The translations under genes and the position numbers were made by a program. Below are positions 5,463 through 57,928 of a DNA stretch of 57,973 nucleotides, in pieces. The stretch lies in the IMG/VR virus record IMGVR_UViG_3300008266_000068, positions 1 through 57,973 of that record. The stretch is one strand, 5' to 3'. Below the pieces are notes generated by a model. The model was not told the origin of the DNA. It saw only the letters and a list, made by a program, of their open reading frames with translations, and made no database searches. Origin of the DNA: a virus. Position 1 is the first letter of the stretch, and every line of letters begins with the position of its first letter.

Positions 5463-5482
5463 AATAATACAATAGTATTATT
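5463..5482. repeat. AT-rich hairpin before the polymerase gene
   Basis: AATAATAC and GTATTATT form a perfect 8-bp inverted repeat around a four-base AATA loop, in the 43-base gap between the preceding gene's stop and the polymerase ATG. Seven of the eight pairs are A-T. The minus-strand transcript continues with TTTTTAAAATC. It could be a weak attenuator or RNA-processing structure, or chance in an AT-rich genome. Confidence 0.35.
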
Positions 5483-5494
5483 TTTTTATCTTTA

Positions 5495-5983: not shown

Positions 5984-5985
5984 TT

Positions 5986-19346: not shown

Positions 19347-20141
19347 TTATTTATCTTCATTTTTTTTCATGAAAAAATATTTCGATAATATATTTTTAGT
19401 TTCTTCTTTTAACTTTAATATATCAACTTTGTTAACTAAAGGTTGTTCACCTATTGATGTAAAAACTGTAGAATTGCCGACAGTTTCTATAAACTTATCA
19501 AGAAAATCTTTTAATATATTTCCTTGCGCAAATGCTTCTTCTTCTTTAGTTAATACAAATTTATCAATTTCAACAAGAATTTCAGTGTCTGATTGTACAA
19601 TTCTTGAATATTTATTTAAATTACCTACTAACGTTTGCTTTGAAAGTTCACATCTTTCATATGAAGTATTATAAGTTTCTTTTTTTACTGATGATTCTAT
19701 TTCAATTATTCCTTTTGAATTTTTAATAAAAATTACAGGACTATCACCAGAAATTAAAATAGAAATAGCTTCATCGTTTGGATTTAATCGTATTTCACAA
19801 ATACTATTTTTAAATCGTCTTTTTATAACATATTCATTTTCTTCGTTGTTACTATTTTCTTCTTCACTTTGTAAAACACCAACTACTATTTGTTTATTAT
19901 TAAATTCATCTAACACATATACGACAGATGAACCAAATGCTTCATTTTCAGGAAATTCAATTTGTTGCAAACAACTTTTTGAAATAGCAATATTATTAAT
20001 AACACCTCCAGCTTCACTTGTTATACTTACAGTACCAGTCATAAAACAATCAAGAATGTATTGATCTCTATCTACATTTTCTGGTACTGTTATATAAGCA
20101 ACACCAGCTATCCACTTATTATTTGTTGATAAACTAATCAT
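19347..20141 (-). CDS. Baseplate spike / gpV-like protein (probable)
   Basis: The first 100 residues of this 264-residue protein look like an OB-type beta domain (AFGSSVVYVLDEFNNKQIVVG, shortened here by pattern only). They are followed by short regular strands (ICEIRLNPNDEAISILISG, SPVIFIKNSKGIIEIES) that suit a trimeric beta-prism or beta-helix, as in gp5C/gpV spikes. The C-terminus is helical and lysine-rich. It overlaps the hub-lysozyme gene by eight bases and is followed directly by a small spike-region gene. It would form the membrane-piercing needle under the hub. The assignment rests on strand pattern and position. Confidence 0.55.
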   Translation of the reverse strand: MISLSTNNKWIAGVAYITVPENVDRDQYILDCFMTGTVSITSEAGGVINNIAISKSCLQQIEFPENEAFGSSVVYVLDEFNNKQIVVGVLQSEEENSNNEENEYVIKRRFKNSICEIRLNPNDEAISILISGDSPVIFIKNSKGIIEIESSVKKETYNTSYERCELSKQTLVGNLNKYSRIVQSDTEILVEIDKFVLTKEEEAFAQGNILKDFLDKFIETVGNSTVFTSIGEQPLVNKVDILKLKEETKNILSKYFFMKKNEDK

Positions 20142-23100: not shown

Positions 23101-23181
23101 ACGTTGAAATTTTAAAAACGCGTCTACAGTTTCAATTAATCTATTGTTATTTACAAAATAATATAATTTACTTATCGGCAT
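20134..23181 (-). CDS. Baseplate hub protein with GH24 lysozyme domain
   Basis: The 1015-residue protein joins a long hub-like region to a tail lysozyme. Residues about 1-740 are mixed alpha/beta and consistent with a gp27/gp44-type hub. Residues about 790-945 carry a GH24 (T4/P22 lysozyme) domain: KKWEAGKGG holds the catalytic Glu, AYTDGK the second acid, LYTIGWGHQ the Thr and Gly-His motif, then LTQNQFDALFDFTY and PGLVKRRKEE. This domain would cut peptidoglycan locally during injection. About 70 further residues follow it. It follows the tape measure gene by 10 bases and overlaps the spike candidate by eight. All expected catalytic residues are present, so activity is likely. Confidence 0.88.
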   Translation of the reverse strand: MPISKLYYFVNNNRLIETVDAFLKFQRSPVFNRFKNAEEFLNQKDETDSGNNFSRIQNAIINSDIKNKNIELFNKRKFEEIYLPYGVELVASKDKVEILNYAFQGINIVTQPEAWFKADKLVELENNKEYVRSANIFQNNTPNGRLIQQMSQISVWIWCRALNMPNKLLDVSPYIYSCSISNAVNGGNFQLKLAPLTYTINSNDEIEINRDSLTTFYDSTLVRTPVVKLNDKEQFVKTKFLFKDLLQQNDLVYIKFEKLQLEKNRKDGFENMFIDNSELAGEVFDLIGLIGSTSESSSAEDGSVNISVEGEDLMKVFIEDGVYFFPYEVSKGSEYIASGGKDNVLTSRMFGGLLPLYKQELSIVDVFQFVISQLSNILICPDELFSFYKESKIKKLSFSTPDREIIDSELKRNEKFNDKELSKGIWKIFNLVTDENVDKRIVVDTTLSTATGSLLNFLQGVCQKEFIEFYSDTYGDSFYFIIRKPPFDKKAYEALLNGVVKTKSEIKDTSINNELKEDYQLKTNLIIDIDSSVVISDMLTDETEAYSWYHLTPKANQLGASYSRLYVPPVYLSEFAEIYGSKSYEVQHNYIPFSTKITADSGLVLNALETQSLLDLKFLVETHCYLPFTRKGRIQILGDRRIKVGNFVRYIPTGEIFYVDAVTQSMGINNDKQTRVTSITVSRGMVEKHIIDSKYSYFNILNLDNDLKYEKVTEPITELRTVITNQKEIDDFYKKEKQSFSPAIQSTTTLVELVTKLPYDLFNSELLISDLQGISKILSPDSFIGVFKASESAYKLVKKWEAGKGGKFITNAYTDGKLKNGKQLYTIGWGHQIQPGEEYLLTKTITEEEGDKLRERDFIDISNTVFQYTNTFGLKLTQNQFDALFDFTYTTGNLKSFKFFMLKVKQFLKNEISKDELIYTWSTTAVTRKGDPTILPGLVKRRKEEVSMFLGQTVDDTNLKFSESSIPEPIYETQEVNIGFREITRVNQSEFRKNFVVNPEVFKFFISRKQFLKND

Positions 23182-38736: not shown

Positions 38737-40224
38737 TTAAGCTACCAATGTCTTGGCGCAGTTAATAAACCTTACCATTTTTTTCGGAGCATAAAGATTC
38801 GGGGTTCCAAATAAGAAACAGATAAACTGCCTGCTCATTGAAATAACCGCTAAATCCAATTTTGATATCGGCGCCAATTGTTTAAATGAAACAACTTCAT
38901 CATTCCATTGTGTTAAGAATGCTTGTTCCATATCCGGTAAGAAATATCCAAGATCACGAACTACGTTAGCTGCTGCACCATCAAAACCTGTAATTGCATC
39001 ACCTTTTGAAACTGCAAATAAAGGATAAAATTCTAATCCAGTTGGAGTTGCGGCGGCAGTAGGTTTAGTCCTGTAAATTCTGTAACCTAAAGTAGGATAA
39101 GTGCCAGCACCATCTGTAACTGCTACGTCTACTGCTTTACCAGTAATAACAACCATTGCTGTTGCATCGATAGTTAAAGCAGATTCACCAAATTTACCAA
39201 TAGCTGAAACAGCGTAAAAATAATTAAGTGATCCAGGGTTATCAACAGCAGTTACATATTTACTGTTAGCGTCAGTTTGTAAAATTGATACACCACCTGT
39301 AGGAGCAGCAGGAGCTTTAGTATCAGGAAGTGATGCAGAATTTTTAGAACCCGGTGCTTTGATAAATTTATCACCAGTTAAATTAACATCGCCTACTGAT
39401 GTAGAAATAGCTTTTAATACAGTTCCCATTGTACCACTTACACCACCGCGGCCATCCTGCAAAATCCTTTGCTGATTGTAATAATCCTGAGATAAAGCGG
39501 AATTTACTTTTGGTGGAGCGAATAAATCGGTAGCAGTACCATAATGATCATCAACTATAATAGCACCTTTTTCAACGTCAGTTTGTTTTAATGATTTACC
39601 ACGTAAATCAACAACAACATCGGATTCAAAGTATGCTTTCCTGTTTGGCCAGAAATACTGTAAATTACCACCGGAACCGATCGACATATGCTGTTTATAC
39701 AAACCATTAAATTGATCTGGTACAATACCTGAATCGGCAAATGCAAGGTTGCGGTTAGCTAACCTTAAAATCCATTTCATTTTATTTTCAACTTCCTGGG
39801 TCATGGCTTGTACAAATGATTTAACCATTTGCGCCTGCATTGTTACAGAACCTGTAACCTGCATGTACTTCACCAATTCCGCCCTACGGATATATGAAGA
39901 ATCTTCAACTTCAGAAAGTTCACCTTCTGAATAAAATCCTCCTCTTTCAGAACCGTAACTGTACAACTGAACAAATTCTTCAACGGTGTTGTAAGCAACC
40001 ATTTTCGGAATTGAATTGAACATTTTAATATCCTGGGTACGGTATTCCAGATTTTTTAATGTTCTTTCTAACGATTCGGGTTTTAAAGGCTCCATTGTCA
40101 GGGAAAGGTTGGTCGTTTCACGGCCAGTTGTACTTCCTGCCTGCATGGCTTTCAACAGTTCTTCACCAGAAACATCTCCGGCGAACCCCTGTGAAAAATC
40201 ATCAAGTGATAAGTGGTTAAACAT
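38737..40224 (-). CDS. Major capsid protein (HK97 fold, Ig/FN3-like insertion)
   Basis: This is the main head subunit. The N-terminal arm is followed by LERTLKNLEYRTQDIKMFN and EEFVQLYSYGSERGGFYSE, an E-loop-like and spine-helix pattern of large HK97-fold capsids. YMQVTGSVTMQAQMVKSFV and MKWILRLANRNLAFA continue the P domain. Residues about 300-420 form an inserted domain starting KAPAAPTGG and containing YFYAVSAIGKFGESAL and YRIYRT, the pattern of FN3/Ig-like modules on capsid surfaces. The C-terminus returns to the capsid core (QFICFLFGTPNLYAPKKM). Codons are clearly less AT-biased, fitting very high expression. A protease/scaffold gene comes before it and a strong terminator after. Confidence 0.92.
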   Translation of the reverse strand: MFNHLSLDDFSQGFAGDVSGEELLKAMQAGSTTGRETTNLSLTMEPLKPESLERTLKNLEYRTQDIKMFNSIPKMVAYNTVEEFVQLYSYGSERGGFYSEGELSEVEDSSYIRRAELVKYMQVTGSVTMQAQMVKSFVQAMTQEVENKMKWILRLANRNLAFADSGIVPDQFNGLYKQHMSIGSGGNLQYFWPNRKAYFESDVVVDLRGKSLKQTDVEKGAIIVDDHYGTATDLFAPPKVNSALSQDYYNQQRILQDGRGGVSGTMGTVLKAISTSVGDVNLTGDKFIKAPGSKNSASLPDTKAPAAPTGGVSILQTDANSKYVTAVDNPGSLNYFYAVSAIGKFGESALTIDATAMVVITGKAVDVAVTDGAGTYPTLGYRIYRTKPTAAATPTGLEFYPLFAVSKGDAITGFDGAAANVVRDLGYFLPDMEQAFLTQWNDEVVSFKQLAPISKLDLAVISMSRQFICFLFGTPNLYAPKKMVRFINCAKTLVA

Positions 40225-40294: not shown

Positions 40295-42007
40295 CTATGA
40301 TACTATATTTAATCCCTTACCTGTAAGATATTTATATGTAGTTCTTTCATCCAGCGTTTTAGCTATTTCAATTTCCTGAACTGATTTTTGCAACATTTGA
40401 TCAGTACCATAATTTGGCATTTCTTCGATACGTTGCATTAATGCTTCTCTATCTTCAGATTTTGATAAGCTATATACTTCACCTTCTGCTTTATTATTGT
40501 TTCCTTCATCTTTTGATTTTTCAAAACGTGGTACTTCCCTTACATTTTGAAACGCTTTTCTACCACCTTGAAATGTAGCAATTTTTTGCAGTAAATTTGA
40601 ATTACTTTCAACTGAAGCATCAAATGATTTTTGAATTGAACTAACTTTTTCAGTTTGCTGTTCTGCAATATCTGCGATAGCGGTAAATCGTGAACTTAAA
40701 AAATCAGATTGCTTAATAAAAATTTGTTCCATTCTATCAATAACGCTTGATAAAGATTTTTCCAACACTTCTTCAATAAGCAAAATATTCATTTCTTTTG
40801 ACTTCCCTAATTCTGAAGTATCACCACCCATATTTTTTGAATTCATTTCAGCCAATACGCTTTGCCATGCGCCTTGACATTCACTTAAAGAAAAACCTTT
40901 ACGAATTGAATCTTCGTAAAATGAATTTTCAACTTCAGGTGTTACACCGGCTTCAATAAAAGTTTCACATGATTTTTTTAATTCATCTTTTCTTTCACCT
41001 TCCTTAATTTGTTTCTCAACTTCTTCTTCAGTAAGTGAAGCGTTATCACCTGTTGTATTTATTTTTTCTTTAACACCACCTTCGTCTTTACCTTTTTCAA
41101 AAATCTTATTTACGTTTTCATCATCTTTTAAAAGATCTTCTGCAGATTGTGATTTACGTAAAATATCAAAAGACTTCTGTAACGCTGTTTCAGAAACTGT
41201 AGTTTTGTTATTAGTATTTGACATATCAGGATGAATTTTATTATTAACGGCTAAAATGAAATTATAAATATCTTTTGCTTTTGACAAATTTATATCAAAA
41301 TTCTTAATTATTTCACAATATACTTGTGATTTTGTTAAAGTTTTTAATCTACCATCTGTTTCAACCGATTCTAATGTAGTAGGAGCAAGAGATGAAGTAG
41401 TCATATCTTTCTCTAAATATCCACATTTTATACATTTACCATTTTGTAATTGTTCATCTGTACAATTTGGACAATATGTTTCGGGAGCAATATATAGTTC
41501 ATTATATTGACCTTTTACTATATTAACAAATGTATTTGAATTTTTAGGACAGTGTGTAATTGCAACACCAGTTATTAATGCTTTACGAACACGCTTTGGA
41601 TTTAATGGGTCTCTGTCAGTTGCTATACCTTCAATTGACCAACCTAACTGTCGCGTTGATTTATTTTTCTTTAACGTAATTGCTTTATTATAAGTATCAA
41701 TAGCTTTTTTATCGCCTTTAAATAATTTACCTCTTATAAAAAACTCATTGTTTTCAGTTACTCTTGCAGTCATAGGTTCACCTATAATAGCATCGGGATC
41801 GTCTTTTGCACGGTGATTCCAATTAATAACGCCTGATTCCATAAGCGGAGAAAAATCAAAACCTGAGGGATCAAGATATTCACCATCAAAATCTCTTCCA
41901 TTATCAGAAGCTATTCCTTCGATAATCATTTCACCATTTGATTCTTCTGTTCCTTTTACTATTTCAATTGGAACGAAAAAATTAAATTTATTTTTTTGAT
42001 CTATCAT
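40295..42007 (-). CDS. Fused prohead protease, zinc ribbon and scaffold
   Basis: Residues 1-165 match the HK97-type prohead serine protease: H64 in INWNHRAKDD and S124 in LGWSIEGIA are the likely catalytic pair, and the strand ALITGVAITHCP follows. Residues 179-195 are a zinc ribbon (CPNC, then CIKC). Residues about 220-570 are charged and helical, as expected for a scaffold domain, so protease and scaffold are one polypeptide that probably releases itself during head maturation. This half contains 13 [L/I/F]-x-K-[S/A/G] motifs, possible cleavage sites. The gene ends 70 bases before the capsid gene, in the standard protease-scaffold-capsid order. Confidence 0.88.
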   Translation of the reverse strand: MIDQKNKFNFFVPIEIVKGTEESNGEMIIEGIASDNGRDFDGEYLDPSGFDFSPLMESGVINWNHRAKDDPDAIIGEPMTARVTENNEFFIRGKLFKGDKKAIDTYNKAITLKKNKSTRQLGWSIEGIATDRDPLNPKRVRKALITGVAITHCPKNSNTFVNIVKGQYNELYIAPETYCPNCTDEQLQNGKCIKCGYLEKDMTTSSLAPTTLESVETDGRLKTLTKSQVYCEIIKNFDINLSKAKDIYNFILAVNNKIHPDMSNTNNKTTVSETALQKSFDILRKSQSAEDLLKDDENVNKIFEKGKDEGGVKEKINTTGDNASLTEEEVEKQIKEGERKDELKKSCETFIEAGVTPEVENSFYEDSIRKGFSLSECQGAWQSVLAEMNSKNMGGDTSELGKSKEMNILLIEEVLEKSLSSVIDRMEQIFIKQSDFLSSRFTAIADIAEQQTEKVSSIQKSFDASVESNSNLLQKIATFQGGRKAFQNVREVPRFEKSKDEGNNNKAEGEVYSLSKSEDREALMQRIEEMPNYGTDQMLQKSVQEIEIAKTLDERTTYKYLTGKGLNIVS

Positions 42008-42021: not shown

Positions 42022-42414
42022 CTATATTTTTATTAAATGAATTATTATACATAAAATAAAAACAATCACTGTTATTAGTAGTTCTAACAATCTACCTTTT
42101 TTAGTAAATATTTTTTGAAATAAATCATTTTCACTGTAAATATTTTTCGGTTGACGAGTAAGTAAAATAGTAAAATAATTATAAAAAATTCTACGTGAAA
42201 CAATTGCAGCTGGAATTAAAAAATACGCGTGAGTATCAATTAACATTAAAGAAAATGAGAAAATGAGAACTAATGTAAAAATAGTTGTTCTGTAAAATTC
42301 CTGTTTACAAAATAATTTATAATTAATAAGTTTTTCAGTTCTTAATTTTATTGTAGCTTGTTTTAATAAAGCTTCAACAATAAATAAAATTGAAATTAAA
42401 AATAAATACTTCAT
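42022..42414 (-). CDS. Small membrane protein, lysis region
   Basis: The 130-residue product has three to four hydrophobic helices: residues 1-16 (YLFLISILFIVEALL), about 45-75 (IFTLVLIFSFSLMLI and then FLIPAAIVS), and 108-130 (LLELLITVIVFILCIIIHL). Basic residues lie between them. It overlaps the preceding membrane gene by four bases and ends 14 bases before the protease gene. Next to a holin it may be a second holin, an antiholin or part of the lysis apparatus, but no family is recognised. Confidence 0.6.
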   Translation of the reverse strand: MKYLFLISILFIVEALLKQATIKLRTEKLINYKLFCKQEFYRTTIFTLVLIFSFSLMLIDTHAYFLIPAAIVSRRIFYNYFTILLTRQPKNIYSENDLFQKIFTKKGRLLELLITVIVFILCIIIHLIKI

Positions 42415-42812
42415 ATTTCTTTTTCTTTATTCGTTAAAATATCGATATTTACTTGACCTTTCTTTTGTATTGTACCCAGGATATAATAAAACAACCATTG
42501 ATTTGCTACACCTACAAGATATAATATCAAAACAGATAATGGGATCCATTTTGAAAATTGCATAATGTGTTCATTAGCAGACGCAGATATTGTTTTCATA
42601 AAATGAAATGAATATGCTATAATACAAGTAAAAATTATACTCATACAATAACTCGGCCATTCACGAGAAAAAAACTTCTTCAACACTATATTCCAATTTA
42701 TATCTTCAGGTGTTTTATCTACAATACTTTTCATTTTAGCAAATATGTGAGTTACAACACCAGATAATAAAATTATCCACATCGCGAAAAAAGAAAGAGG
42801 TATGATTATCAT
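42411..42812 (-). CDS. Small membrane protein, lysis region
   Basis: The 133-residue protein shows three hydrophobic segments: residues 1-22 (IIPLSFFAMWIILLSGVV), about 55-72 (CMSIIFTCIIAYSFHFM), and about 88-110 (WIPLSVLILYLVGVANQW). Lys-rich hydrophilic parts lie between them. It follows the holin gene with a 53-base gap and overlaps the next membrane gene by four bases. Its role is not recognised; involvement in lysis or membrane modification is inferred from this context. Confidence 0.6.
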   Translation of the reverse strand: MIIIPLSFFAMWIILLSGVVTHIFAKMKSIVDKTPEDINWNIVLKKFFSREWPSYCMSIIFTCIIAYSFHFMKTISASANEHIMQFSKWIPLSVLILYLVGVANQWLFYYILGTIQKKGQVNIDILTNKEKEI

Positions 42813-42865
42813 GATATTTACTTTTTAAAAATTAAAATTATTAATAAAATCTCAATTTATTATTT

Positions 42866-43354
42866 TTATTTTATCCCTACTTTTCCTTTTATTAATTTCA
42901 TAAAAGGTGTAACAACATATTTTACTATTTTTGCTTCAGGATTAATAGCTATAAGATTTTCACAAATTGAAATTAATTCTATTAATAAAATAAAAATAAA
43001 TGCGCCATCAATTATAACTCTATATTTACTGAAATTGTTTTTTCCTACTGATATATTCAGTAAAATAGTTCCAACCAATATAAATCCAGCATATTGCGTT
43101 AATTTACTGATAGTCTGTCTTAAACCCTGGCTTGTTGTATTATTTTTTTGCACCCAAGCTTTACATAAACCTGTTATTAAATCAATTATAACTGCTATCG
43201 ATAATAATAATATAAAATCAACAGAAGGTAAATACAATACTTCTAAAAATGTAAAACCTAATAACATAGCCAAAAATGGATATGATTTTAATAATAAAAA
43301 TTTTTGTATCATTAGGTTTGTTTTTAATTGACTTATTTTTAATAATTGATTCAT
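42866..43354 (-). CDS. Phage holin (holin-4 type)
   Basis: The 162-residue protein has three to four membrane helices and the holin-4/toxin-secretion pattern: VIIDLITGLCKAWVQKNNT, then GLRQTISKLTQYAGFILVG and FILLIELISICENL. These holins form the inner-membrane lesion that starts lysis. It is the first of three consecutive membrane genes and lies after the signal-peptide fibre gene. No endolysin gene is adjacent; the only lysozyme in the window is in the baseplate hub. Length and helix order fit the family. Confidence 0.82.
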   Translation of the reverse strand: MNQLLKISQLKTNLMIQKFLLLKSYPFLAMLLGFTFLEVLYLPSVDFILLLSIAVIIDLITGLCKAWVQKNNTTSQGLRQTISKLTQYAGFILVGTILLNISVGKNNFSKYRVIIDGAFIFILLIELISICENLIAINPEAKIVKYVVTPFMKLIKGKVGIK

Positions 43355-43422: not shown

Positions 43423-46400
43423 TTAAATAATTTCTGTTACGACAAATGTTGAACCGACAAGCACACTTGATGCTGTACCGAAACTTGCGTTTTGTGCAAA
43501 CTGTACTGTAAGTGTTCCTGCTGCGTTGACTGTTATAGTTCCTTTGATTGTAAGTGATGCTGCTGTTACTGCTGTTACTGCTGAAACGGCAGTACCAAGA
43601 GCTGTACCTCTGCCTCCAATTCCTAAACTTGGATAAGCAGGGAAAGATTCGTAAATAATATTAGTTGCTGTTGCAGTCCCTGCGATAGCAAACTGTACGC
43701 CGCCAGCTACATTTGAGGTGGTATATAATATAGCCTCAAACCGATAGGTCTTACCAGCAACCAATGTCGCAGTAAGCCCTGTAATATCATCAAGAGTTGT
43801 GTTTGATGTTTTATCAAATTGTGACGTTACTCTGCTTGATTGAGTTTGTAATCCAGATGTACCCCATGAATATCCGTTGTAAAACACAGGTGCTTTGATT
43901 GTACTATCATATACTTGAAGTCCTGTTGCTGGTGTTACAATCGCATCCCTCTGTGCTGTTGTCTGGCGTGGCATCAACACCCCTTTATCAGTAGATGTCA
44001 AATCAAGTATTGCAGAAGCATTGGCTGTTGCAACACCTATACTCACCCTGCCTGCCGCTGTTGGCGCACCTGATGATGCTGTTTGACCTCCATAAATATT
44101 TGTACCATAAATAAGGTTTCCTATATTCAACAAAGCTGAATCATTTGCAGTCTGTCCATCAACAAAATTGCCTATGATGATATTTTTATGGGCTGCTCTG
44201 TGAATATTGCCAGTACTTGTACCTATCATAACATTATAGTTTCCAATCGTGTCCCAATATTGGGCGTTTCGCCCCATAGCTATATTGTAAGCACCATATA
44301 AAGATTTTGTCTTTGCAAATGTGCCTACTGCAACATTGTAATTTCCTGTTAAATGTTCATACATAGCCTCTTTACCCATAACTGTATTACCTCCTGATGA
44401 AGTAGCTTTTCTAAAAGCAACAAAACCAACAATGGTATTGTCTGAATTTGCATTTCTTCCATTAGCATAACCACCTATGGCGACATTGCCACTATGTATA
44501 ACATTAGAAGCCAATGCTGAATCCCCTATGGCTGTGTTTCCCGTGCCTGTTGTTGTTGAACCTAATGCATCTGCGCCTAATGCTGTATTCCAAACACCTG
44601 TTGCTACATCTGCTGCTCTATATCCTAATGAAGTAATCCTGTTGTTGCTGTTAATAGTTCCACTCTTTTCATTATTTACTCTGAATACAAATGCTCTGTT
44701 ATCTGTTGTGCCTATAAAATTAATTGAAGAATCAGTGCTTACATTTCCAAGTGTGCTCCATCCACTACTTGAACTGATTGCACCCCAACCGCTTGACCTG
44801 TAGAAATTAAAAGTGCTATCAGTTGTGTTGTAAACCATCAAACCAATTGCAGGTGAAACAATAGCATCTCTTTCAGGAGTTGTTAATCGTGGTATCAACA
44901 AACCTCTGCTTGTTGTTTTCATTTCAAGCAATGCAGAACTGTTTGGTATTGAAGTGCCAATACCAACATTTGTGTTTTGTGATGAATCACCAAGTATTAC
45001 AGTATTTGATTGTGCAACTTTTGTGAGTGCTCCAATAGCAGTTGCGTTTTTTAGGTTTGTTGTTGTAGGTACGGTTGCCAATACGCCTGTATAATAACCA
45101 AGAAAATTCATTAAAGAATCTTTGTACCGTGTGTTATTAGCACCTGACCACGAACCTATAAAATTGCTGCCAAACGAAGCTCTATCTCTCCACCCTGCCG
45201 CTTGACCTATCCATGTGTTATGATTGGAATTTGCAACAACTGCAGTAGCAGTAGCACCAACTCCATCACCTGTTATTGTAACTGTAGGCACAGTCCATGA
45301 ACCATGTGTATAATTAGTTGCTGCTCTATCAACGTAACCTATACCTGGGAATGTAATAGTTGCACCTGTAATCACACCCAAACTAATAATAGGTGTTGCA
45401 GTAGCAACCGCTTCATAAAGTGCCGGCATATTTGGTTGTCCGTATGTTTTTGGTGGGTCAACTGTTATTGTAGCAGTAGTATATCCACTACCTCCATTTG
45501 TGATAATTATAGTGTCAATAATGCCTGCTGCAAATCCACCAGCAGATGTACCTAACGCCGTATTATAACTACCATTTCCAATAGTCCTCATCGCATCTTT
45601 TCCAATAGCCGTATTGTTAGTTACCTTTATCCCTCTTTCCATCGCACCTGCACCAACCGAAGTTACGCCCTGACCTGCTACTGTCATAAAGTTTGCCAAC
45701 GAGCCTACGGTAGTTACACGACCATAATCTGATGCACTACCATACTGCAGATTAATAGCAGCTAAATTACCTATAACAGTAGTTTGCCCAGGAGTAAGCC
45801 ATGCAGAATCGGGGTCTAACTTATTTCCTATATTGGTTCCAGCGTATCCGCCTATAGCTGTAAGGCTATATCCGCTTGCCGATAATGTAGGATTATCTAA
45901 ATCTTTCTTAACCATTGCCTGCCCAGCTTTATAGCCGATAGTAACAAGCGATTGCCCAGGAAAACCAAACTCTGTAGGAGCTAAAGGCGCTTGAGTTAGC
46001 CAGCTATGCGGCTGTCCAATATACCATGCACTATTATCCCATATTCTACCCTGTAAAGCGTGTACAGAATCTACAGTACCGATGAAATTTGTATTATTTG
46101 TTCCTGTGTTTCCTGTATTATACCAAAAATTTGTACCAGTAAATACTTTACGCCATGCAGTTCCATTATACGAACAAATCATTAACGAATCTGTATTCCA
46201 AATTAATAAACCTGATAAAGGTGAAACTATAGCATTCATTTGCGCTGTAGTCAATCGCGGTATTAATATTCCTTTTGTAGTTGACGTTACATCTAAAATA
46301 GAAGATGAATTTGGCGCTAAAAAACTACTACCTGTATTTCCTATTCTTAATTTTCCATTAATAAGAAATACACCATCTCTATCACCACCTGATTTAACAC

Positions 46401-46503
46401 CACCTACTTTAGTAGTATCATATGCTAAATTACCTACTGATTTCTGCGCAATAATTTTATTGCAAAAACTAAACAACAGTAATAATAAAAGAATTTTTTT
46501 CAT
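43423..46503 (-). CDS. Signal-peptide fibre/adhesin-like protein
   Basis: Residues 1-20 (MKKILLLLLLFSFCNKIIAQ) form a Sec signal peptide with the AQ junction typical of Bacteroidota. Three copies of a [L/I]-[L/M]-P-R-x-T-T-x-x-[M/R]-[N/D]-A-I-V-[S/T]-P module follow, near residues 70, 525 and 830 (ILIPRLTTAQMNAIVSP, LLIPRLTTPERDAIVSP, VLMPRQTTAQRDAIVTP). Between them lie YadA-head-like repeats (NTAIGKDAM, NTALGADAL, NVAIGGYAN, NVAVGTFAK, NVMIGTSTG). The last 140 residues resemble a jelly-roll trimerisation domain. It reads as a trimeric fibre or adhesin. A cleavable export signal is unusual for a virion protein, so export or host-gene capture is possible. Confidence 0.75.
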   Translation of the reverse strand: MKKILLLLLLFSFCNKIIAQKSVGNLAYDTTKVGGVKSGGDRDGVFLINGKLRIGNTGSSFLAPNSSSILDVTSTTKGILIPRLTTAQMNAIVSPLSGLLIWNTDSLMICSYNGTAWRKVFTGTNFWYNTGNTGTNNTNFIGTVDSVHALQGRIWDNSAWYIGQPHSWLTQAPLAPTEFGFPGQSLVTIGYKAGQAMVKKDLDNPTLSASGYSLTAIGGYAGTNIGNKLDPDSAWLTPGQTTVIGNLAAINLQYGSASDYGRVTTVGSLANFMTVAGQGVTSVGAGAMERGIKVTNNTAIGKDAMRTIGNGSYNTALGTSAGGFAAGIIDTIIITNGGSGYTTATITVDPPKTYGQPNMPALYEAVATATPIISLGVITGATITFPGIGYVDRAATNYTHGSWTVPTVTITGDGVGATATAVVANSNHNTWIGQAAGWRDRASFGSNFIGSWSGANNTRYKDSLMNFLGYYTGVLATVPTTTNLKNATAIGALTKVAQSNTVILGDSSQNTNVGIGTSIPNSSALLEMKTTSRGLLIPRLTTPERDAIVSPAIGLMVYNTTDSTFNFYRSSGWGAISSSSGWSTLGNVSTDSSINFIGTTDNRAFVFRVNNEKSGTINSNNRITSLGYRAADVATGVWNTALGADALGSTTTGTGNTAIGDSALASNVIHSGNVAIGGYANGRNANSDNTIVGFVAFRKATSSGGNTVMGKEAMYEHLTGNYNVAVGTFAKTKSLYGAYNIAMGRNAQYWDTIGNYNVMIGTSTGNIHRAAHKNIIIGNFVDGQTANDSALLNIGNLIYGTNIYGGQTASSGAPTAAGRVSIGVATANASAILDLTSTDKGVLMPRQTTAQRDAIVTPATGLQVYDSTIKAPVFYNGYSWGTSGLQTQSSRVTSQFDKTSNTTLDDITGLTATLVAGKTYRFEAILYTTSNVAGGVQFAIAGTATATNIIYESFPAYPSLGIGGRGTALGTAVSAVTAVTAASLTIKGTITVNAAGTLTVQFAQNASFGTASSVLVGSTFVVTEII

Positions 46504-47144: not shown

Positions 47145-50100
47145 TTATTTTTCACCGGCTTCATATACCTTACCACTTTCAGGAACTTTAAACTTCGGAA
47201 TTATTATTCCAGTTTTAACATTATCGTAATCAGAAATTTGTAAATCTTTTATTTGTGGAACATTAACTGCAGTTACGCTTTTGTTTCTTTCTATTAAATC
47301 CAACAAAGGTAAAGTGTATTGTTTGTCGTTATATTTAAACGATATTTTAATATCTTTACTATTAGTAAACATATTTGAAACTGTAGTTAACGTATCTGAT
47401 ATAAATTTCTTTGTAGAAGATTCGTTTATAGAAGAAATAAACTGATTTACATTTCTTTCTCTATTTTCAAATGTATGTAATTTTTCGTGTTTTGTTTTTA
47501 ATTTTTCTAATCCTTTATTATAAACTTTATCTTTTGATTCTATTTTACTTAAAAAATCAATATCTGTTGGTAAAGTTTTCGTACCATATAATTCAGAAAA
47601 ACCATTTAAAGTATTTGCATGAAAAACTGATTCAATTACATCTGCATATTTTTCAGGTATATCAATTCTCTTTGCTGTACGTTTATCATAATATACTCCA
47701 TCTTTTTTAACAGAATAAATTAATTTATCTTTTAAACCAGCATATATTGTTGAATTTTTTAATTCATTTTTTCTATACTCAAAATCATCGTCTTCTTCAA
47801 TTTTTTTATGATACCTTTGAGTATATGGAACACCTTTGCTTGATACTTTTTTCACTGCTTCAACTGTTAACGCTTTTTCAAATTCGTTTAAAACATCGTA
47901 TTCATTATATTCAATACCGAAGAAGTCGTTTGCTTTATTCAATTCATCAGGTATATAATTAAAATACGTTGTTTCATTTCCTGCAGATTTTTTTAATTTG
48001 TTGTAAAAATACCAATCAGTAACTAAATTTAAAGATTTTTTAGCGCGTGTATAAGCCACATACCTGAGATTAGCTTCCTGTGTTGCCTGAAATTCATTTT
48101 TAGCACGTGTTCCATGTAACATATCATCTTCAACAATATAGACTCTATCAGCTTCTAATCCCTTCGCTTTATGAACTGACGATAACTGAATTCCACCTTT
48201 CTGTGATTCTGAAAATATTTTACTAATATTTGCAACCATTTCATTAGGTGTTTTTGAATCATCTCGTAATGCTTCATAACATTCTCTACGTTCTGTCAAA
48301 TTAATAACCGGATTTGATTCCAATGCTTGTTCATGCGTTAATCCACGTAATACCTGTTTGTTAATTATTTTACCAATTTCTAAATTAATTTTAAGATACA
48401 TATTTTTAAACCCTTCAGGTGAATCCATTAATTTTTTACCTACATATCTTTGAATTTCATTTATCATTGTTTCACCTATATCACGACCTTTTATTGTTGC
48501 TGCCTTTTTTTCACCAATAAATTTCATACATAAAGAAATCAAAGGCGCGTTATTTCTACACAACACCATATCGCCTGCTTTAATATCGTTTATAGATGAT
48601 TCTAAATTTACTTCACCATCTTCTGCTTTTTCCCAATAATCAATATCAACGCCTGTTGTTTGCCTAACGTAATTTATTATTGATTTACCACAACGATATG
48701 AAACTGAAAGTGGAAGACGTTTTGTATTTTCAGTATTAGCTATATTTTCAAATGATTCATGATCACTTCCCATAAAACCAAATATAGCCTGTCGTGGATC
48801 ACCTACAGCAACCATTCTACCACCAATCTTTGGATCGAACATTTTTCTAACTAATTTTAATTGCGCTTTATTTAAATCCTGACATTCGTCAACAAATACA
48901 AAATCATATTTTTGTACTCCAAATTTATCATACGCTGCAGGTAAATAAATCATGTCTTCATAATCTATCATTTCAGTTCTTGCATCCAACATTTTCATAC
49001 AAGTTCTTACATACTGTGCTTCATTTGAAATTAATTCAACACCTTGTCTACGTACTAATTCAGTTAATAAAGCTGGATCAGCGGTTAAATTTTGCTGCCC
49101 TGTTGAAACTAATTTATAAACATTAGCCATAAATTCGATCTTATCGCCATCTTCTAATTTCTGTTCAGTAGCAATTCGATTAACAAATTCATTAAGTACT
49201 AATTTTTTCTTATCTTTTTCAACCTTTATATATTTACCATAAACTTTCTTTATACAATTAAATCCAAATGCATGCAATGTTGAGCAATCAACTTCCTTAG
49301 GTAATCTTTCACTTAATTCAGTTTGAATAAGTTTTGAAAACGCTACAAAAGCTATTTTTTTATTTTTAGGAATAAACTCCATACTATTAACTATAGTAGT
49401 AGTTTTTCCAGTACCAGCTTTTGCATCTACCGCGCAATTACCTTCACCGCTTTGAATAAAATCAAAAATACCTTGTTGCTGTGGAGAAGGTGTTTGTTTA
49501 GGTTTTATTGAAATTTCACCTTCAATATTTAATGAACCATCTGAAGCAGTTGAAGGTGTATTAACATCAGCAGTTTCTTTTTCCAATTCTTTAACTTCTT
49601 CAATTTGTTTTTCTTCTTTACTTATAAGATGTTTGTAATCACTATGAACATGATGTTCATTGCCAACTATAGGTACCCACCCTGCTGCAGTTTTTACATT
49701 TTTCTTAGCCTTATCTAATGAACCAATTGGAAATGCTTTTTTACCTTTTTCAAATTCATCATCGATATTACCTTTTTCCATTACTTCACATATCGTATCT
49801 TTATTATCAATTAATGTTTGTATAAATAAATCGTCATTGTCATCGTTTCTATCCATATTATACATCACAAAACTTATAGCTTGTAGTGAACCGTTAAGTG
49901 ATATTTCTGGAGTAACTGTTATTAATTGTTTTGGTGAAATTATTTCATCAAATTTTTCTTCTATAATTCCAGTTAATCTTTCTTTTAAATCTAAAATAAA
50001 AAATTCGCTTGGTATTTCATTTAAATTATTAATACTTACTAACTGATAATCATGTTGTTCTTCATGATCTAATACAATATGATCTTCAATTACAAAATTT

Positions 50101-53100
50101 TCATTTAATAAAATGTAGAAGTAAAATGATTTTGTTTTATCTGTATTTTCTATTACTTTAGCAAATCTTACATCTTCTTCATTAAAGACAATATTTATTT
50201 CTTCCAACGTTTCACGAATTGCTGCACAAATAGGTGTTTCATTTAATTCTATTTTACCACCCGGTAATGCTAATTTACCGGGCATAAAATCATCGTCTTT
50301 ACTTCTCTTTACAAGTAATACTCTTAAATCATTTGTTACAACTATTAAATCTGCGTATTGTGGTTTTTCTTTTTTAAATTTATTTAGTTTTATAATATTA
50401 CCTATAGCATCTGTAAAAGGCTTAAAAAACTTTGATATTGCTGCGAATCCTGACGATTCTCCGACTTTTTCGTCTTCGCCAAATAGTTCATCGATAGCTT
50501 TTTTTAATTCATCAGATTCATAAAGTTTGCGCATCTGACTTAAAATATCTTTATTCGACGAAATGATATTATGACTTATAATATTTCTGTCGTAAAATAA
50601 ACCTGAAACTTCAGTTTCTACCTTTTCAATTTTTTGCGCCTTAGGCATTTTTGAATCCTTGAAGTTATGTGCCATCATTGTACATATAACATCACCAGGG
50701 TAATTTTCAATTAATTTATCGTATGATCTTTTACTAATTACAACAGCGGGTTGATTCCTTTGTGCAAATCTGTTAGCTTCAAGAATATTGTCTTGATTAT
50801 ATGCTGGCTTATTTTCAATGCTTTGATATGTACCATTTCCATTGTCAACTAAAAACGCAGGTGAACCTACATCACTTGATCTATATGAACGTAATAAATT
50901 TCTTGTTTCATCAGGTGCATAAGGTTTTTCAAATTTTACAGCCCAGGGACTTACTGATAATACTTTTAAATCCAATTCATCTTTAAAATTGTTTCTTATA
51001 AAATCCTTATGAACAAGATCGTATATTTTCTGACTGTCTTTTAATAATGAATGTGTACCATTCATTTCATCAAGTTTTGTATTTTGATACTCTAACGCAC
51101 TTTGTTTTGTAACAAATTTTTGTGAATGTGTTTTTATAATATCGCTATCACCAGTATCAAGATAACTATCTATACTTTTTTTATTTAAATGATAAAAAGA
51201 ATAATACTCTGCAAAAGCTTCTTCAGGTGAAACATGAGCATAATCAGTAATTAATTTTATACCACTGTTGCTACCATTTCTTGGTATTCTTATATCATCG
51301 CCTGTTGCGTTATCTTTTGTTCTTTCTTCTTTATAACTCCATCCACATTGATTTGCAAATTTTCTATATTCTTGACTTCCATATCTATCAAGTTTTTTAG
51401 AAACAGCATGTCCCATTTCATGAACAACTACAGAAGCGAAATGATCTGTCGCGTCTATGTTTGATACTTTAGAAGTTGCTCGTAAACAATCTGGTGAAAA
51501 CTGTATTTTTTTATTATTAGGATCGTAAAACGCGTAAGTCTTCGTATATTCATTATCATATTGTATTGTAGTTAAATTTGAATTATTTACAATATGACCT
51601 TTTGGCAAAGTATCTATTAACTTTTCAATTGTTTCTAATGCGTTAATATTTGATTTATTCCAATCACCTGTTAATTGTTTTTTATATTTTGAATTAAAAC
51701 GCATTTGAAGTACTGGTTTAAAATCCAATTTCGCTTTTTCAAAATAGTCTTTATTTATCAAATCAGTAAATATAATATCTAAATCGTATTTATTTACTGG
51801 AAATTTATTTGCATTTACATAACTTTGAAAATGATTCTTCGCTTCCTCTTCTGAAAAACCAACTTGTTTGAATTTCTTTAAAAAGTTACCTTTTATTTTT
51901 TCAGCATCTTTTATATTTGCCAAACTTATAGTTGGAACATTATAACGAGGTACAGATACAGAACCATTATCGCCAAAACCTAAAGTAACTTCAATATTTT
52001 GTCCTTGAAAAAACGTTAATAATTTTTTACCTGTTAATGAAAATCTTTTAAAAGCTGAATTAGTAGCAGCAGTAGGTTTTGGGTGTTTACCTATTATCGA
52101 TAATAAAGAAGCAAATCTTTGTACATGTAAATCATTATCTACAGTATTTTTAACAAAAAATCTACTCAATGAATTTGTAGCAACTGCTGTAAGAGCTAAT
52201 GACGATATACCTGACGTTTCGTTTGCATCTACAATTAAACTATCACGAGTACCTAAATATTTCATTAGTTCTTTCATTATCTGATTTGATCCTGTTACAG
52301 TTAATGCAACACCATCGTAATCATAATTACTTTTTTGTGTATCTGCAACAACTGATAATACACCTTTGACGTTATTTATTTCAACATCGTAATCGTTTGT
52401 TAATTCTTCATTAGTTGGTACGTTATCTTCAACGACTGTTTTTTCTAACTTCTTTACAAGATCGCCGTAAAATATATGCGCATCTGAAAATATATCTACA
52501 TCAAAACGTTTTATTGATTCTTTTTCTAAATACGTTTTTATAGCATCGTTATTATGATTTAAATAAAATTCAAAATCTTTATCAATGCTATCAGTTTGTG
52601 TTTGATATAATATCCAATTACTACTGAAATTTTCAACACAAAATTGTTTTAATTCATTTACCTTATCAACAACTTCAAAATATTTATCGGCTTTTGAATT
52701 TCTTAAATCTGCAAGTTCACCTCTAAACTGCTTGTATTTTTCTTCTAATTCTGGTGAAAGGTTTTTAGCTTCAAGTAAATGTTCATAATTTGCTTGTATA
52801 ACATCTCCTAAATTAGTAAATAATGAAATATCTACTTCTTTAGAAAGTTTGTCTTTATATTTTTCCCTTACTTCTTTTTTAATTGCTTTTACAATATCAT
52901 CTTTACCATCAACTGCACCTACTGCTGCTAAACGATCTTGTATTTCAATATACATTTGTTGCCATATAGACATCGCACGTTTTGTAAATTCATTTGTAAA
53001 TGAATATTTTAACGCACCATAAAATCCTTCGTATTGTTTGAAATCAGTAGGTTTGAAAGGACCATTTTGTTCACCTTCAACTTTTTTAAAGTTTGTTATT

Positions 53101-53330
53101 ATTTCATCAAGAAAAACTTCACCATTTACAGGTTCTTTTATTCTACAAAATTCTTGTGATAATTTATTTAAGTGATTACCTAATTTTTCTAAAATTGGAA
53201 AACTTGGAAGATCATACCAACCATTATGATAATTTGTAGCCTCATGTAATTTTATTACCATTCCACGCTGCCAACTTCTAATTGTACCGACTGGGCAAAC
53301 TCTTGGCCGTTCTTCTTTTGAAATCGACAT
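47145..53330 (-). CDS. Giant virion-type protein: zincin, NUDIX and SF1 helicase
   Basis: This 2061-residue protein has three enzyme-like regions. HEMGHAVSKKLDRYG near 637 has the HExxH metalloprotease motif. A NUDIX box lies near 1018-1041 (ALPGGKIELNETP, then AAIRETLEEINIVF), with a DHEEQHDYQLV tail. A UvrD/PcrA-type SF1 helicase spans about 1290-1775: Walker A AKAGTGKTTT, FVDECQDLN, VGDPRQAIFGF, SYRCGKSIINYV, SVHKAKGLEADRVYIVEDD and YVAYTRAKKSLNLV. Between NUDIX and helicase sits the module AFPIGSLDKAKKNV, then AAGWVPIVGN. The first 560 and last 290 residues are helical and charged. It starts a few bases after a 59-residue gene. A packaged, cleaved cargo protein is inferred. Confidence 0.9.
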   Translation of the reverse strand: MSISKEERPRVCPVGTIRSWQRGMVIKLHEATNYHNGWYDLPSFPILEKLGNHLNKLSQEFCRIKEPVNGEVFLDEIITNFKKVEGEQNGPFKPTDFKQYEGFYGALKYSFTNEFTKRAMSIWQQMYIEIQDRLAAVGAVDGKDDIVKAIKKEVREKYKDKLSKEVDISLFTNLGDVIQANYEHLLEAKNLSPELEEKYKQFRGELADLRNSKADKYFEVVDKVNELKQFCVENFSSNWILYQTQTDSIDKDFEFYLNHNNDAIKTYLEKESIKRFDVDIFSDAHIFYGDLVKKLEKTVVEDNVPTNEELTNDYDVEINNVKGVLSVVADTQKSNYDYDGVALTVTGSNQIMKELMKYLGTRDSLIVDANETSGISSLALTAVATNSLSRFFVKNTVDNDLHVQRFASLLSIIGKHPKPTAATNSAFKRFSLTGKKLLTFFQGQNIEVTLGFGDNGSVSVPRYNVPTISLANIKDAEKIKGNFLKKFKQVGFSEEEAKNHFQSYVNANKFPVNKYDLDIIFTDLINKDYFEKAKLDFKPVLQMRFNSKYKKQLTGDWNKSNINALETIEKLIDTLPKGHIVNNSNLTTIQYDNEYTKTYAFYDPNNKKIQFSPDCLRATSKVSNIDATDHFASVVVHEMGHAVSKKLDRYGSQEYRKFANQCGWSYKEERTKDNATGDDIRIPRNGSNSGIKLITDYAHVSPEEAFAEYYSFYHLNKKSIDSYLDTGDSDIIKTHSQKFVTKQSALEYQNTKLDEMNGTHSLLKDSQKIYDLVHKDFIRNNFKDELDLKVLSVSPWAVKFEKPYAPDETRNLLRSYRSSDVGSPAFLVDNGNGTYQSIENKPAYNQDNILEANRFAQRNQPAVVISKRSYDKLIENYPGDVICTMMAHNFKDSKMPKAQKIEKVETEVSGLFYDRNIISHNIISSNKDILSQMRKLYESDELKKAIDELFGEDEKVGESSGFAAISKFFKPFTDAIGNIIKLNKFKKEKPQYADLIVVTNDLRVLLVKRSKDDDFMPGKLALPGGKIELNETPICAAIRETLEEINIVFNEEDVRFAKVIENTDKTKSFYFYILLNENFVIEDHIVLDHEEQHDYQLVSINNLNEIPSEFFILDLKERLTGIIEEKFDEIISPKQLITVTPEISLNGSLQAISFVMYNMDRNDDNDDLFIQTLIDNKDTICEVMEKGNIDDEFEKGKKAFPIGSLDKAKKNVKTAAGWVPIVGNEHHVHSDYKHLISKEEKQIEEVKELEKETADVNTPSTASDGSLNIEGEISIKPKQTPSPQQQGIFDFIQSGEGNCAVDAKAGTGKTTTIVNSMEFIPKNKKIAFVAFSKLIQTELSERLPKEVDCSTLHAFGFNCIKKVYGKYIKVEKDKKKLVLNEFVNRIATEQKLEDGDKIEFMANVYKLVSTGQQNLTADPALLTELVRRQGVELISNEAQYVRTCMKMLDARTEMIDYEDMIYLPAAYDKFGVQKYDFVFVDECQDLNKAQLKLVRKMFDPKIGGRMVAVGDPRQAIFGFMGSDHESFENIANTENTKRLPLSVSYRCGKSIINYVRQTTGVDIDYWEKAEDGEVNLESSINDIKAGDMVLCRNNAPLISLCMKFIGEKKAATIKGRDIGETMINEIQRYVGKKLMDSPEGFKNMYLKINLEIGKIINKQVLRGLTHEQALESNPVINLTERRECYEALRDDSKTPNEMVANISKIFSESQKGGIQLSSVHKAKGLEADRVYIVEDDMLHGTRAKNEFQATQEANLRYVAYTRAKKSLNLVTDWYFYNKLKKSAGNETTYFNYIPDELNKANDFFGIEYNEYDVLNEFEKALTVEAVKKVSSKGVPYTQRYHKKIEEDDDFEYRKNELKNSTIYAGLKDKLIYSVKKDGVYYDKRTAKRIDIPEKYADVIESVFHANTLNGFSELYGTKTLPTDIDFLSKIESKDKVYNKGLEKLKTKHEKLHTFENRERNVNQFISSINESSTKKFISDTLTTVSNMFTNSKDIKISFKYNDKQYTLPLLDLIERNKSVTAVNVPQIKDLQISDYDNVKTGIIIPKFKVPESGKVYEAGEK

Positions 53331-53548: not shown

Positions 53549-55072
53549 TTAAGCGATATCTACAAGAACTGCAGCTTGTTTTTCGAATTTTTGTTTATCC
53601 AAAACACCACCATTCATTCTTTCATTAACTTTTGCAAACATTGCAAGGTTTGAAAGTGTTCTACCGTTTACTTTATCGATATCAAGGTTTTTTCTGTATT
53701 TAGTAAGAAAATCAATAACCGCTTGTGTATGTTCAGGTTTAACTCCCATATCATTTCCTTCCTTATCTCTGAACTTCATTATGTTTTTAATTTTATTCAA
53801 CTTATGAATTGTTTCATCCATAGTCATTGATAAATCAATTGCACGTGCTCTTGAATTAACAATAGGTTGAGGTAAATCTTTACGCCTTAAATTTGTAATG
53901 AATATTACTTCACCTGAAAACTTAAATGATTTAGGTGGATATACTTTTTTACCGTCTTCAGTTATTGATATTGGTTTTGGATTTGGGTACCTTATTGTAT
54001 TAGTACCTGAAGTATCTAAAGCACCTTTTAACATATTACCTGCATCTTCATCATCCCACATATTATCGCAGTCATCAAATATAACAAGCTTATCTTTATT
54101 TGTGTACATTAAATTATACATATCAGAAGGTGAAGTTGAACCTGTAATTGTTACAGCGTCGTATTCATCTGCATCTAAATGTAATTCTTCATCGTAAACA
54201 CGTTTGTTATTTCTATCCAACGATTTTAATAACTCCCATGTTTTACCAACACCGCCTGTACCATAAGCAATTAAAGCTTTAGGACGACCTGTAATCATAA
54301 TTGCATCCAAACATAAATCGTATGCATCCCAACGATCTTCGTAACCAACACCTAATGTTTCTGCAATTTTCTTTTTCTGAAAACGATTTATTTTATCGTA
54401 ATCTTTTTGCGAAACTTCTTCCTTAATATCGTTGATATCGAAGTCTTCAGACATTACGTCAACTTTACCATCTTTATCAGTAGGTACATCAGAAGGTAAA
54501 GATGAACCAGTAGGTTTTACAGATTTAAATCCTGAAAAATCATGTTCACGTAATTCCTGTTTTTGAAGATGCGTTGCGTATTTATAATCGCCCAATAAAT
54601 CACCGTGCACATTTGGATCATATATTCCCATAGACATTAAATCACGATGTTGTTGTGCGCGATTTACGTTTTTCTTATTTTCAATTATTGATTGTATTTT
54701 TTCTTCATCGCTATTACCATCAATATCTTTTTCACCTTTATATTTACCACCAAAATTATGAGCAGCATCAATTGTATTATCAACCCAACGAAATGTTTGA
54801 TATGTACTACCATCTTTTTTCTTTGCAATAATTTGTTTCTTTACAAGTTTTGAAGTGTCCAACATACCTTTCACTAAATAGCTTTTAAAACCTAAATCGA
54901 TATTGTTTAAAACAGATTTTTTAACTTCCTGTTTAACCTCTTCAACTTGTTTTTCTTCTTCAACACTTTTTTCAAGTTTAGATGCTTTATCACCTTTTTG
55001 TATTACTTTATCAATATTTTTATTTTTTGCATATTGATTCAGTAAATTAATTTTGCGTTGATTAGCTGACAT
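53549..55072 (-). CDS. AAA+ ATPase in head-morphogenesis block
   Basis: Residues about 258-430 form an AAA+/STAND-like ATPase core: Walker A AYGTGGVGKTWELL, Walker B LVIFDDCDNMWDDEDAG, and a sensor stretch EVIFITNLRRKDLPQPIV with RARAIDLSM. The first 100 residues are charged and include the module LVKGMLDTSKLVKKQIIA and, 10 residues later, QTFRWVDNT, shared in pattern with three other proteins here. Several [L/I]-x-K-[S/G] motifs occur (IQKG, LEKS, LVKG). Residues 100-250 are hydrophilic. It has a good upstream promoter. A packaging, injection or cargo-remodelling ATPase is possible; the substrate is unknown. Confidence 0.85.
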   Translation of the reverse strand: MSANQRKINLLNQYAKNKNIDKVIQKGDKASKLEKSVEEEKQVEEVKQEVKKSVLNNIDLGFKSYLVKGMLDTSKLVKKQIIAKKKDGSTYQTFRWVDNTIDAAHNFGGKYKGEKDIDGNSDEEKIQSIIENKKNVNRAQQHRDLMSMGIYDPNVHGDLLGDYKYATHLQKQELREHDFSGFKSVKPTGSSLPSDVPTDKDGKVDVMSEDFDINDIKEEVSQKDYDKINRFQKKKIAETLGVGYEDRWDAYDLCLDAIMITGRPKALIAYGTGGVGKTWELLKSLDRNNKRVYDEELHLDADEYDAVTITGSTSPSDMYNLMYTNKDKLVIFDDCDNMWDDEDAGNMLKGALDTSGTNTIRYPNPKPISITEDGKKVYPPKSFKFSGEVIFITNLRRKDLPQPIVNSRARAIDLSMTMDETIHKLNKIKNIMKFRDKEGNDMGVKPEHTQAVIDFLTKYRKNLDIDKVNGRTLSNLAMFAKVNERMNGGVLDKQKFEKQAAVLVDIA

Positions 55073-57379: not shown

Positions 57380-57928
57380 TTATTTATCAATTAAATTAAT
57401 TGTTGTTTGTCCAACACCTTTTTCAGTTTTATACATAAACCCTTCTCCGTCTTCATCTATATTTAATACTTTAAATTGTTCACCGTTTATAAAAAACATA
57501 TCACCAATTTCAACTTTTTCACCTCTGTATTTTGTTTTTAATTCAGTTTCACTTGGTACATAATTATGATCTTTTTTTAACTCCTGTAAATCATTATCAA
57601 TATTTAATTGAATATAATGTCGATCGTTTTTAGAAGCATGATGTAAATCATAACGTAATTTTTTTATATGTGATATCAACCAGTTTTTAGATGTTTCTTC
57701 ATTTCTTTCCTTTCTACTACTAATTTCTTCGTGATCTTTTTTAACCTTTGGTATTTTTTCTTTTTTTTCTTTTACAACTTTTTCTTTCGGTTCAGCAACA
57801 ACTTTGTTTTTATTTAATTCTTTGTCTACTAAATTTTCGTTACCTATTACAGGTACCCATCCATTTTCTGTTTTTACATTTTTGCCAGATTTATCTAGCA
57901 TACCGATTGGAAAAGATTTTTTAGACAT
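57380..57928 (-). CDS. Basic protein with shared K-rich/W-V module
   Basis: The 182-residue product starts with MSKKSFPIGMLDKSGKNV, then ENGWVPVIGN. This is almost the same module as residues about 1198-1222 of the 2061-residue protein and is similar to segments in two other head-block proteins. The middle is strongly basic and helical (VKEKKEKIPKVKKDHEEIS). The C-terminal 60 residues look like a small beta domain (VEIGDMFFINGEQFKVLNI). It is the first gene of the window; its promoter or upstream gene lies beyond the edge. An internal head or packaged protein is inferred. Confidence 0.65.
   Translation of the reverse strand: MSKKSFPIGMLDKSGKNVKTENGWVPVIGNENLVDKELNKNKVVAEPKEKVVKEKKEKIPKVKKDHEEISSRKERNEETSKNWLISHIKKLRYDLHHASKNDRHYIQLNIDNDLQELKKDHNYVPSETELKTKYRGEKVEIGDMFFINGEQFKVLNIDEDGEGFMYKTEKGVGQTTINLIDK

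Follow-up and report, generated by a model that had tools for sequence, protein, structure and literature searches.

The window analysed here is the whole of the 57,973-bp linear virus record IMGVR_UViG_3300008266_000068, an incomplete genome. Its minus strand carries an open reading frame (ORF) for a very large protein, P0001, in which a zincin-like metallopeptidase, a ParB/sulfiredoxin (Srx)-like fold, a NUDIX hydrolase and a superfamily 1 (SF1) helicase follow one another in the middle of the head genes, and which we discuss as a candidate polyvalent cargo protein. A first-pass annotation of the letters alone had described the zincin, NUDIX and helicase motifs in one frame; the ORF is intact and every one of these motifs was found, together with features that this annotation had missed, namely the ParB/Srx-like domain (~780-948), a short tag (1193-1225) and a C-terminal extension (1790-2061). 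The layout of the protein, based in part on AlphaFold2 (AF2) models, is as follows:

47145..53330, minus strand: whole ORF of P0001, a polyvalent-type protein; 2061 aa, ATG start, unbroken
53211..53297, minus strand: tag-like motif at the N-terminus, residues 12-40 (CPVGTIRSWQRGMVIKLHEATNYHNGW), modelled by AF2 as three short strands
52425..53198, minus strand: N-terminal helical domain, residues ~45-302 (AF2)
51111..51722, minus strand: predicted zincin-like metallopeptidase, residues ~537-740, with HEMGH at 637-641 and EE at 703-704 (motifs, Foldseek)
50487..50993, minus strand: predicted ParB/sulfiredoxin-like domain, residues ~780-948 (Foldseek)
49959..50378, minus strand: NUDIX hydrolase domain, residues ~985-1124 (PF00293, phrog_1198, MutT in PDB)
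49656..49754, minus strand: head-block tag, residues 1193-1225 (FEKGKKAFPIGSLDKAKKNVKTAAGWVPIVG) (record self-comparison, tag profile)
48021..49487, minus strand: SF1 UvrD/Rep-type helicase, residues ~1282-1770 (Pfam, PHROG, PDB); all motifs intact
47148..47963, minus strand: C-terminal extension, residues 1790-2061, ~270 aa, no firm assignment

The helicase and NUDIX parts have Pfam and PHROG matches far beyond what chance would give. The helicase matches PF00580 (1.4e-20), PF13361 (6.8e-10) and, across residues 1266-1782, the DNA helicase family phrog_1967 (7e-92), with FBH1, GajB, Rep and PcrA as PDB matches. Walker A, DExQ, GDxxQ and motifs IV-VI of the SF1 UvrD/Rep type are all present (AGTGKT at 1305, DECQ at 1481, GDPRQ at 1510, SYR at 1544, HKAKGLE at 1720 and YTRAKK at 1760). 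The NUDIX domain is found by PF00293 (1.3e-12) and phrog_1198 (3e-15), and its nearest PDB structure is MutT (8e-7). The NUDIX box, GGKIELNETPICAAIRETLEEIN, begins at 1024/1025 and keeps the consensus Gx5Ex7REUxEExGU except for the last Gly, which is Asn; all of its metal-binding acids are retained. Residues 988-1056 (window 49959-50378) also match PHROG 15528, a portal family whose profile includes a NUDIX stretch, which may be another sign of NUDIX domains travelling with head proteins.

In the zincin region, a motif search located HEMGH at 637-641 and SPEEAFAE at 701-708, and an alignment shows both HE[MIVL]GH and EEAFAEYYS, the stretch downstream of it, in 11/11 proteins, the EE being invariant. 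Sequence profiles (Pfam, PDB) gave weak matches only, none above cut-off (Aspzincin_M35 in Pfam at 0.003, under the cut-off), so the zincin assignment is based on the conserved motifs and the fold. Residues 529-948 were modelled with AF2 at a predicted local distance difference test (pLDDT) score of 80; where the motifs fall, and how the predicted strands and helices succeed one another, served to assign the two halves of the model. For the first half, the leading Foldseek matches are anthrax lethal factor (probability 0.82-1.00) and PPEP-1 (0.96), at E 0.007-0.05; for the second half they are ParB/sulfiredoxin structures (0.97-1.00, E 0.01-0.1), with template-modelling (TM) scores, normalised on the target, of about 0.3-0.6. 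These E-values are modest (0.007-0.1 overall) and the probabilities mostly high. The HEMGH region thus combines HExxH, a downstream Glu and a predicted gluzincin-like fold, as expected of a zincin of the lethal-factor/PPEP type. Pfam is silent on the ParB/Srx-like domain. The motif DG[AV][NT]R is present in this domain of four related contigs (L016, L018, L019, L022) and absent from the window protein, L005, L015 and L017; because it has been lost in the window protein and in L005, the ParB-like domain may no longer be catalytic in P0001.

For residues 1-302, AF2 predicts three short strands (17-20, 23-27 and 38-40, which make up the N-terminal motif) plus helices with a pLDDT of 81.5, and a search of BFVD for known folds gave no match below E 0.19; the N-terminal motif is kept in 11/11 proteins with this domain and the zincin. 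At the other end, the ~270 residues of the C-terminal extension have a single weak match (phrog_8730, 0.001) and are absent from L005, whose protein ends at 1818. P0001 therefore appears, from its motifs, profiles and models, to hold at least 2 domains of unlike activity, namely zincin, ParB/Srx-like fold, NUDIX and SF1 helicase.

The setting among MuF-like, AAA+, protease and capsid genes noted in the first-pass annotation was confirmed in the window and in its relatives. The window genes concerned are the following:

38737..40224, minus strand: major capsid protein (MCP), SPO1/Twort-like (phrog_752, 6e-66)
40295..42007, minus strand: head maturation protease (phrog_1028, 3e-38)
53549..55072, minus strand: P-loop ATPase, 507 aa (phrog_1250), Walker A GTGGVGKT, syntenic in L005
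55159..56091, minus strand: MuF-like head morphogenesis protein (Pfam only 0.006; phrog_4728, 1e-5)
57380..57928, minus strand: 182-aa protein that begins with the tag (SFPIGMLDKSGKNVKTENGWVPVIGNE) (self-comparison, tag profile)

The MCP is 57% identical to that of Chryseobacterium phage MA9V-3 and 38% to that of Bacteroides phage DAC16, and this kinship within the SPO1/Twort-like family places the phage in a Bacteroidota-infecting group. The MuF-like gene has a homologue in 20/22 genomes and contigs compared, window included.

Eight contigs were retrieved from IMG/VR with the peptidase region as query, and two more by a later scan with the aligned N-domain plus peptidase. The search for homologues with the same domain order that the first-pass annotation had proposed yielded one, in the independent 11-kb contig L005, where positions 2449-7905 encode an 1818-aa protein 62% identical to P0001 over residues 1-1806. 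Three neighbours are shared as well: next to the L005 gene lie homologues of the MuF-like gene, of the P-loop ATPase (74% identity) and of the 194-aa gene downstream (67% identity). P0001 and L005 differ by 0.28, 0.19 and 0.42 per site at codon positions 1, 2 and 3; with substitutions concentrated at third positions, the long ORF is under purifying selection along the chain. Scans with whole P0001 and with the helicase, in which relatives can be overlooked because only a handful of short peptide patterns is used, found no fusion contig beyond L005. When genome contigs were scanned with the zincin alignment, no homologue of cellular or prophage origin turned up, and a plasmid scan found lone UvrD proteins only.

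Nine further contigs carry the N-domain and zincin as a head-block gene of their own, of 530-1060 residues (some cut by contig ends), within the block of ATPase, MuF, protease and MCP, with NUDIX in another head-block gene. The separate NUDIX gene lies directly downstream of the N-domain and zincin gene in G006, G007 and G008 and upstream of it in G004 and G005. Its partner domains vary: ADP-ribosyltransferase (ART) in L008 (1.5e-8), a GNAT-like domain in L010 (weak, 0.004) and a P-loop ATPase in L009. The fusions of NUDIX with ART (L008 5772-7571) and with ATPase (L009 6693-8939) are both encoded in head blocks of phages that have the zincin. In MA9V-3 and DAC16 a head-block gene encodes NUDIX by itself, and lone UvrD helicases stand outside the head block in DAC16, MA9V-3, G007 and G009. 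In a helicase tree, P0001 and L005 group together (100/100) outside the group of MA9V-3, G007 and G009, with weak deeper branches; the tree does not derive the fused helicase from the lone ones of its kin, and relocation of the lineage's own lone helicase is unsupported. Such swapping of domains among relatives looks like the mix-and-match typical of polyvalent proteins. The simplest reading of these arrangements is the fusion of two neighbouring head-block genes, in which a gene for N-domain, zincin and ParB-like domain would have been joined to one for NUDIX and tag, with the SF1 helicase gained behind the NUDIX-tag unit.

The tag came to light in a self-comparison of the record, in which P0001 residues 1196-1248 recur at the start of the 182-aa gene. 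It spans ~33 residues with the consensus hEKGxKxAxIGEVRxWGGkkYxKTxdGWVxV, and lies between NUDIX and helicase in P0001; in most cases an acidic stretch and hEK[GA] come before it. A tag profile detected 45 copies in 41 proteins of 22 genomes and contigs, counts that are partly self-fulfilling because the profile was built from members of the same set; the best score of a reversed protein was 11.5 bits. The 41 tagged proteins are of unlike content. The first copy starts no later than residue 75 in 33 of them (median 28); in the NUDIX protein of MA9V-3 (XQU63093) the tag is C-terminal, XQU63098 and XQU63102 of the same phage are tagged too, and homologues of the P-loop ATPase bear it in MA9V-3, G009/G010, G015 and G016. 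Of the nine genomes and contigs longer than 50 kb with MCP and protease genes, G006 and DAC16 lack tagged genes; across the nine, the distance to the MCP/protease genes is at most 16.5 kb for every one of the 20 tagged genes (permutation p 5e-5). Contigs fetched by a DNA pattern of the tag alone, several of them short fragments, encode the phrog_1028 protease in 7/13 and the phrog_752 capsid protein in 6/13 cases. These contents and a match in Leptospira phage LE1 are the more independent tests of the tag. In LE1, gp25 (L077 7393-10050; NC_048892.1 25878-28535) is annotated as a "tail protein" and stands directly after the MCP gene; it contains InPase (PF18823, 7e-58), a polyvalent-protein domain, and two copies of the tag (32.4 and 20.8 bits). 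Because of the InPase, the two tags and its position, gp25 is probably a polyvalent cargo protein itself. PVGTIRxWxxGxVIKAHD...GW, the motif at the N-terminus of the zincin proteins, reaches up to 17.4 bits in relatives against the hidden Markov model (HMM) of the tag, and is plausibly a divergent version of it.

The class of proteins to which P0001 would belong is known. Polyvalent proteins join unlike enzymatic domains in one chain, with zincin as the commonest hub and processing of the chain proposed (Iyer 2017, PMC5512222), and in phages their genes sit by virion genes; in P1 DdrB a zincin is paired with a ParB/Srx domain, and a processed form occurs in the head (PMC5512222). P0001 resembles DdrB and DarB of P1 as a multi-enzyme protein of the late region with a zincin hub, a ParB/Srx-like fold and a helicase, adjoining MuF and capsid genes and presumably injected. 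Both its position among virion and late genes and the shuffling of domains between relatives agree with the class; ArdC-N, MTase and DarA domains were not found in P0001. It differs in joining an SF1 UvrD helicase and NUDIX in one phage chain, in lacking the ParB-like Arg and in its extra tag: UvrD in polyvalent proteins has been described for actinobacterial plasmids only, and NUDIX only alongside or fused to InPase (PMC5512222). The first-pass annotation knew of no standard phage protein with this combination, which stands for the order with an SF1 helicase in a phage and not for multi-enzyme head-block proteins as a class; in the open-access literature searched, we found no description of the order N-domain, zincin, ParB-like, NUDIX, tag, SF1 helicase, or of the tag.

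Other systems share single aspects with P0001. NUDIX domains are fused to MuF, portal or head protease in other phages (PMC9503650; portal-NUDIX in PHROG 15528) and are thought to be packaged, whereas that of P0001 is joined to zincin and helicase rather than to portal or MuF. The phrog_1967 UvrD/Rep-like helicases of the DAC16, MA9V-3 and PaMx25 group have a similar ~490-aa domain (31-38% identity) as lone genes, whereas the helicase of P0001 is the C-terminal part of a head-block polyprotein. The giant RNA polymerase that Schitovirus N4 delivers from its virion likewise has a zincin-like domain within its chain (PMC5512222), combined with a polymerase instead of helicase and NUDIX. The internal proteins of T4, Alt among them, are diverse cargo sharing just a conserved targeting sequence (CTS) (PMC3012670, PMC7411985), a likeness to the tagged proteins in that one short element, mostly near the N-terminus, accompanies unlike contents. 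Unlike the CTS, the tag is ~33 residues long, seems to form a small beta-like element, and also occurs internally and C-terminally (MA9V-3 NUDIX).

Taken together, the best overall explanation is that P0001 is a phage polyvalent cargo protein, to which we give a probability of roughly 0.7. The first-pass annotation had suggested injected cargo, which fits the domains, the head-block position and the polyvalent model; packaging itself is quite probable. The protein would be made late, alongside the head proteins. Its loading into the procapsid would probably be aided by the tag-like N-terminal element and the internal tag, and it would then enter the next host, one of the Bacteroidota, together with the ejected DNA. 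The zincin would most likely cut the chain, by self- or neighbour-processing as proposed for P1 DdrB; release of the enzymes by proteolysis, also part of the first-pass annotation, had been proposed earlier for polyvalent proteins (DdrB and DarB of P1; PMC5512222), and for P0001 we consider the chances of processing about even. In the new host, the helicase could act on incoming or host DNA, either jump-starting replication, an early role that we put forward tentatively, or removing bound proteins and defences, and the NUDIX domain could break a nucleotide-diphosphate-X compound, for which an ADP-ribose/NAD-type substrate or a defence signal is an equally tentative suggestion, so that both activities would be supplied at once upon entry; simultaneous action on host DNA, nucleotides and proteins was a conjecture of the first-pass annotation. 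A broader proposal, to which we give slightly less than even odds, is that the tag is a portable signal for head loading, perhaps also for the head protease, of swappable effectors in SPO1-like Bacteroidota phages and LE1, with P0001 as a tagged multi-enzyme cargo whose helicase was placed behind the tag and enters the host ready-made with the genome; the tagged proteins in general would then be cargo.

Several points weigh against this interpretation. The full fusion is carried by two contigs only, and both the fusion and any homologue of the zincin are missing from MA9V-3 and DAC16. The canonical active-site Arg (DGxxR) of the ParB-like domain is missing, and the N-terminal motif of P0001 itself scores only 6.2 bits against the tag HMM. 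The history of the fusion is uncertain because the helicase clade shows no clear descent from the lone helicases of the nearest kin, and no virion proteomics for this phage or close relatives was found in the literature. P0001 could instead be a non-packaged replication or recombination helicase, fused by chance to head-block genes and acting where it is made. The lone homologues outside the head block in DAC16, MA9V-3, G007 and G009 would agree with this, as would the use of UvrD/Dda-type helicases in recombination by jumbo phages (PMC7824862), and the incomplete window may lack an ordinary helicase copy, or P0001 may have replaced it. The N-domain and zincin partner family, however, lies in the head block in 11/11 records, the tag between NUDIX and helicase is limited to head-block genes in large contigs, and DnaB, primase and PolIII of the window stand in a separate replication block, which makes an intracellular helicase unlikely.

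A role in head assembly without injection, with the zincin and N-domain serving procapsid maturation or scaffolding and the helicase and NUDIX serving packaging or DNA ends, would account for the constant position beside protease and MCP and for the conserved adjoining P-loop ATPase and MuF-like genes. The accessory domains, however, are swapped among relatives (NUDIX with ART, GNAT-like or ATPase; the helicase present only twice), and are therefore effector-like rather than parts of a core assembly factor, so that we regard this role as improbable. An assembly chimera or frame artefact, which the first-pass annotation had named as a way in which its reading could fall, might be suspected from a single metagenomic contig whose relatives hold the domains apart; L005, with the same order and the same flanking genes in an independent contig, rules it out, and we leave it almost no weight.

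If P0001 is indeed polyvalent cargo, its SF1 helicase, NUDIX enzyme and peptidase reach the cell ready-made, before any phage gene expression, and the tag would provide a sequence rule for spotting, in a large group of Bacteroidota phages, injected proteins that otherwise go unrecognised. What selects unlike effectors for packaging in phages other than T4 is a long-open question, which a short peptide would make directly testable; Chryseobacterium phage MA9V-3 and Leptospira phage LE1 are relatives available in culture.

Other genes of the window and its relatives can be described briefly. Between the head protease and P0001, positions 43423-46503 encode a 1026-aa tail-spike or structural-like protein that starts with a typical Bacteroidota secretion signal (MKKILLLLLLFSFCNKIIAQK). 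Between the protease and this spike-like gene (42022-43354) lie three small hydrophobic proteins of 130, 133 and 162 aa, probably membrane proteins, the last of which, the 162-aa one, is holin-like by eye. A 1015-aa protein of the tail region (20134-23181) has a C-terminal phage lysozyme domain (PF00959, 2e-13). In G009 (80029-82530; L043 29-2530), the head-block P-loop ATPase gene (phrog_1250) contains a LAGLIDADG segment and matches profiles of intein-bearing terminases and primases, which suggests an intein inside this ATPase.

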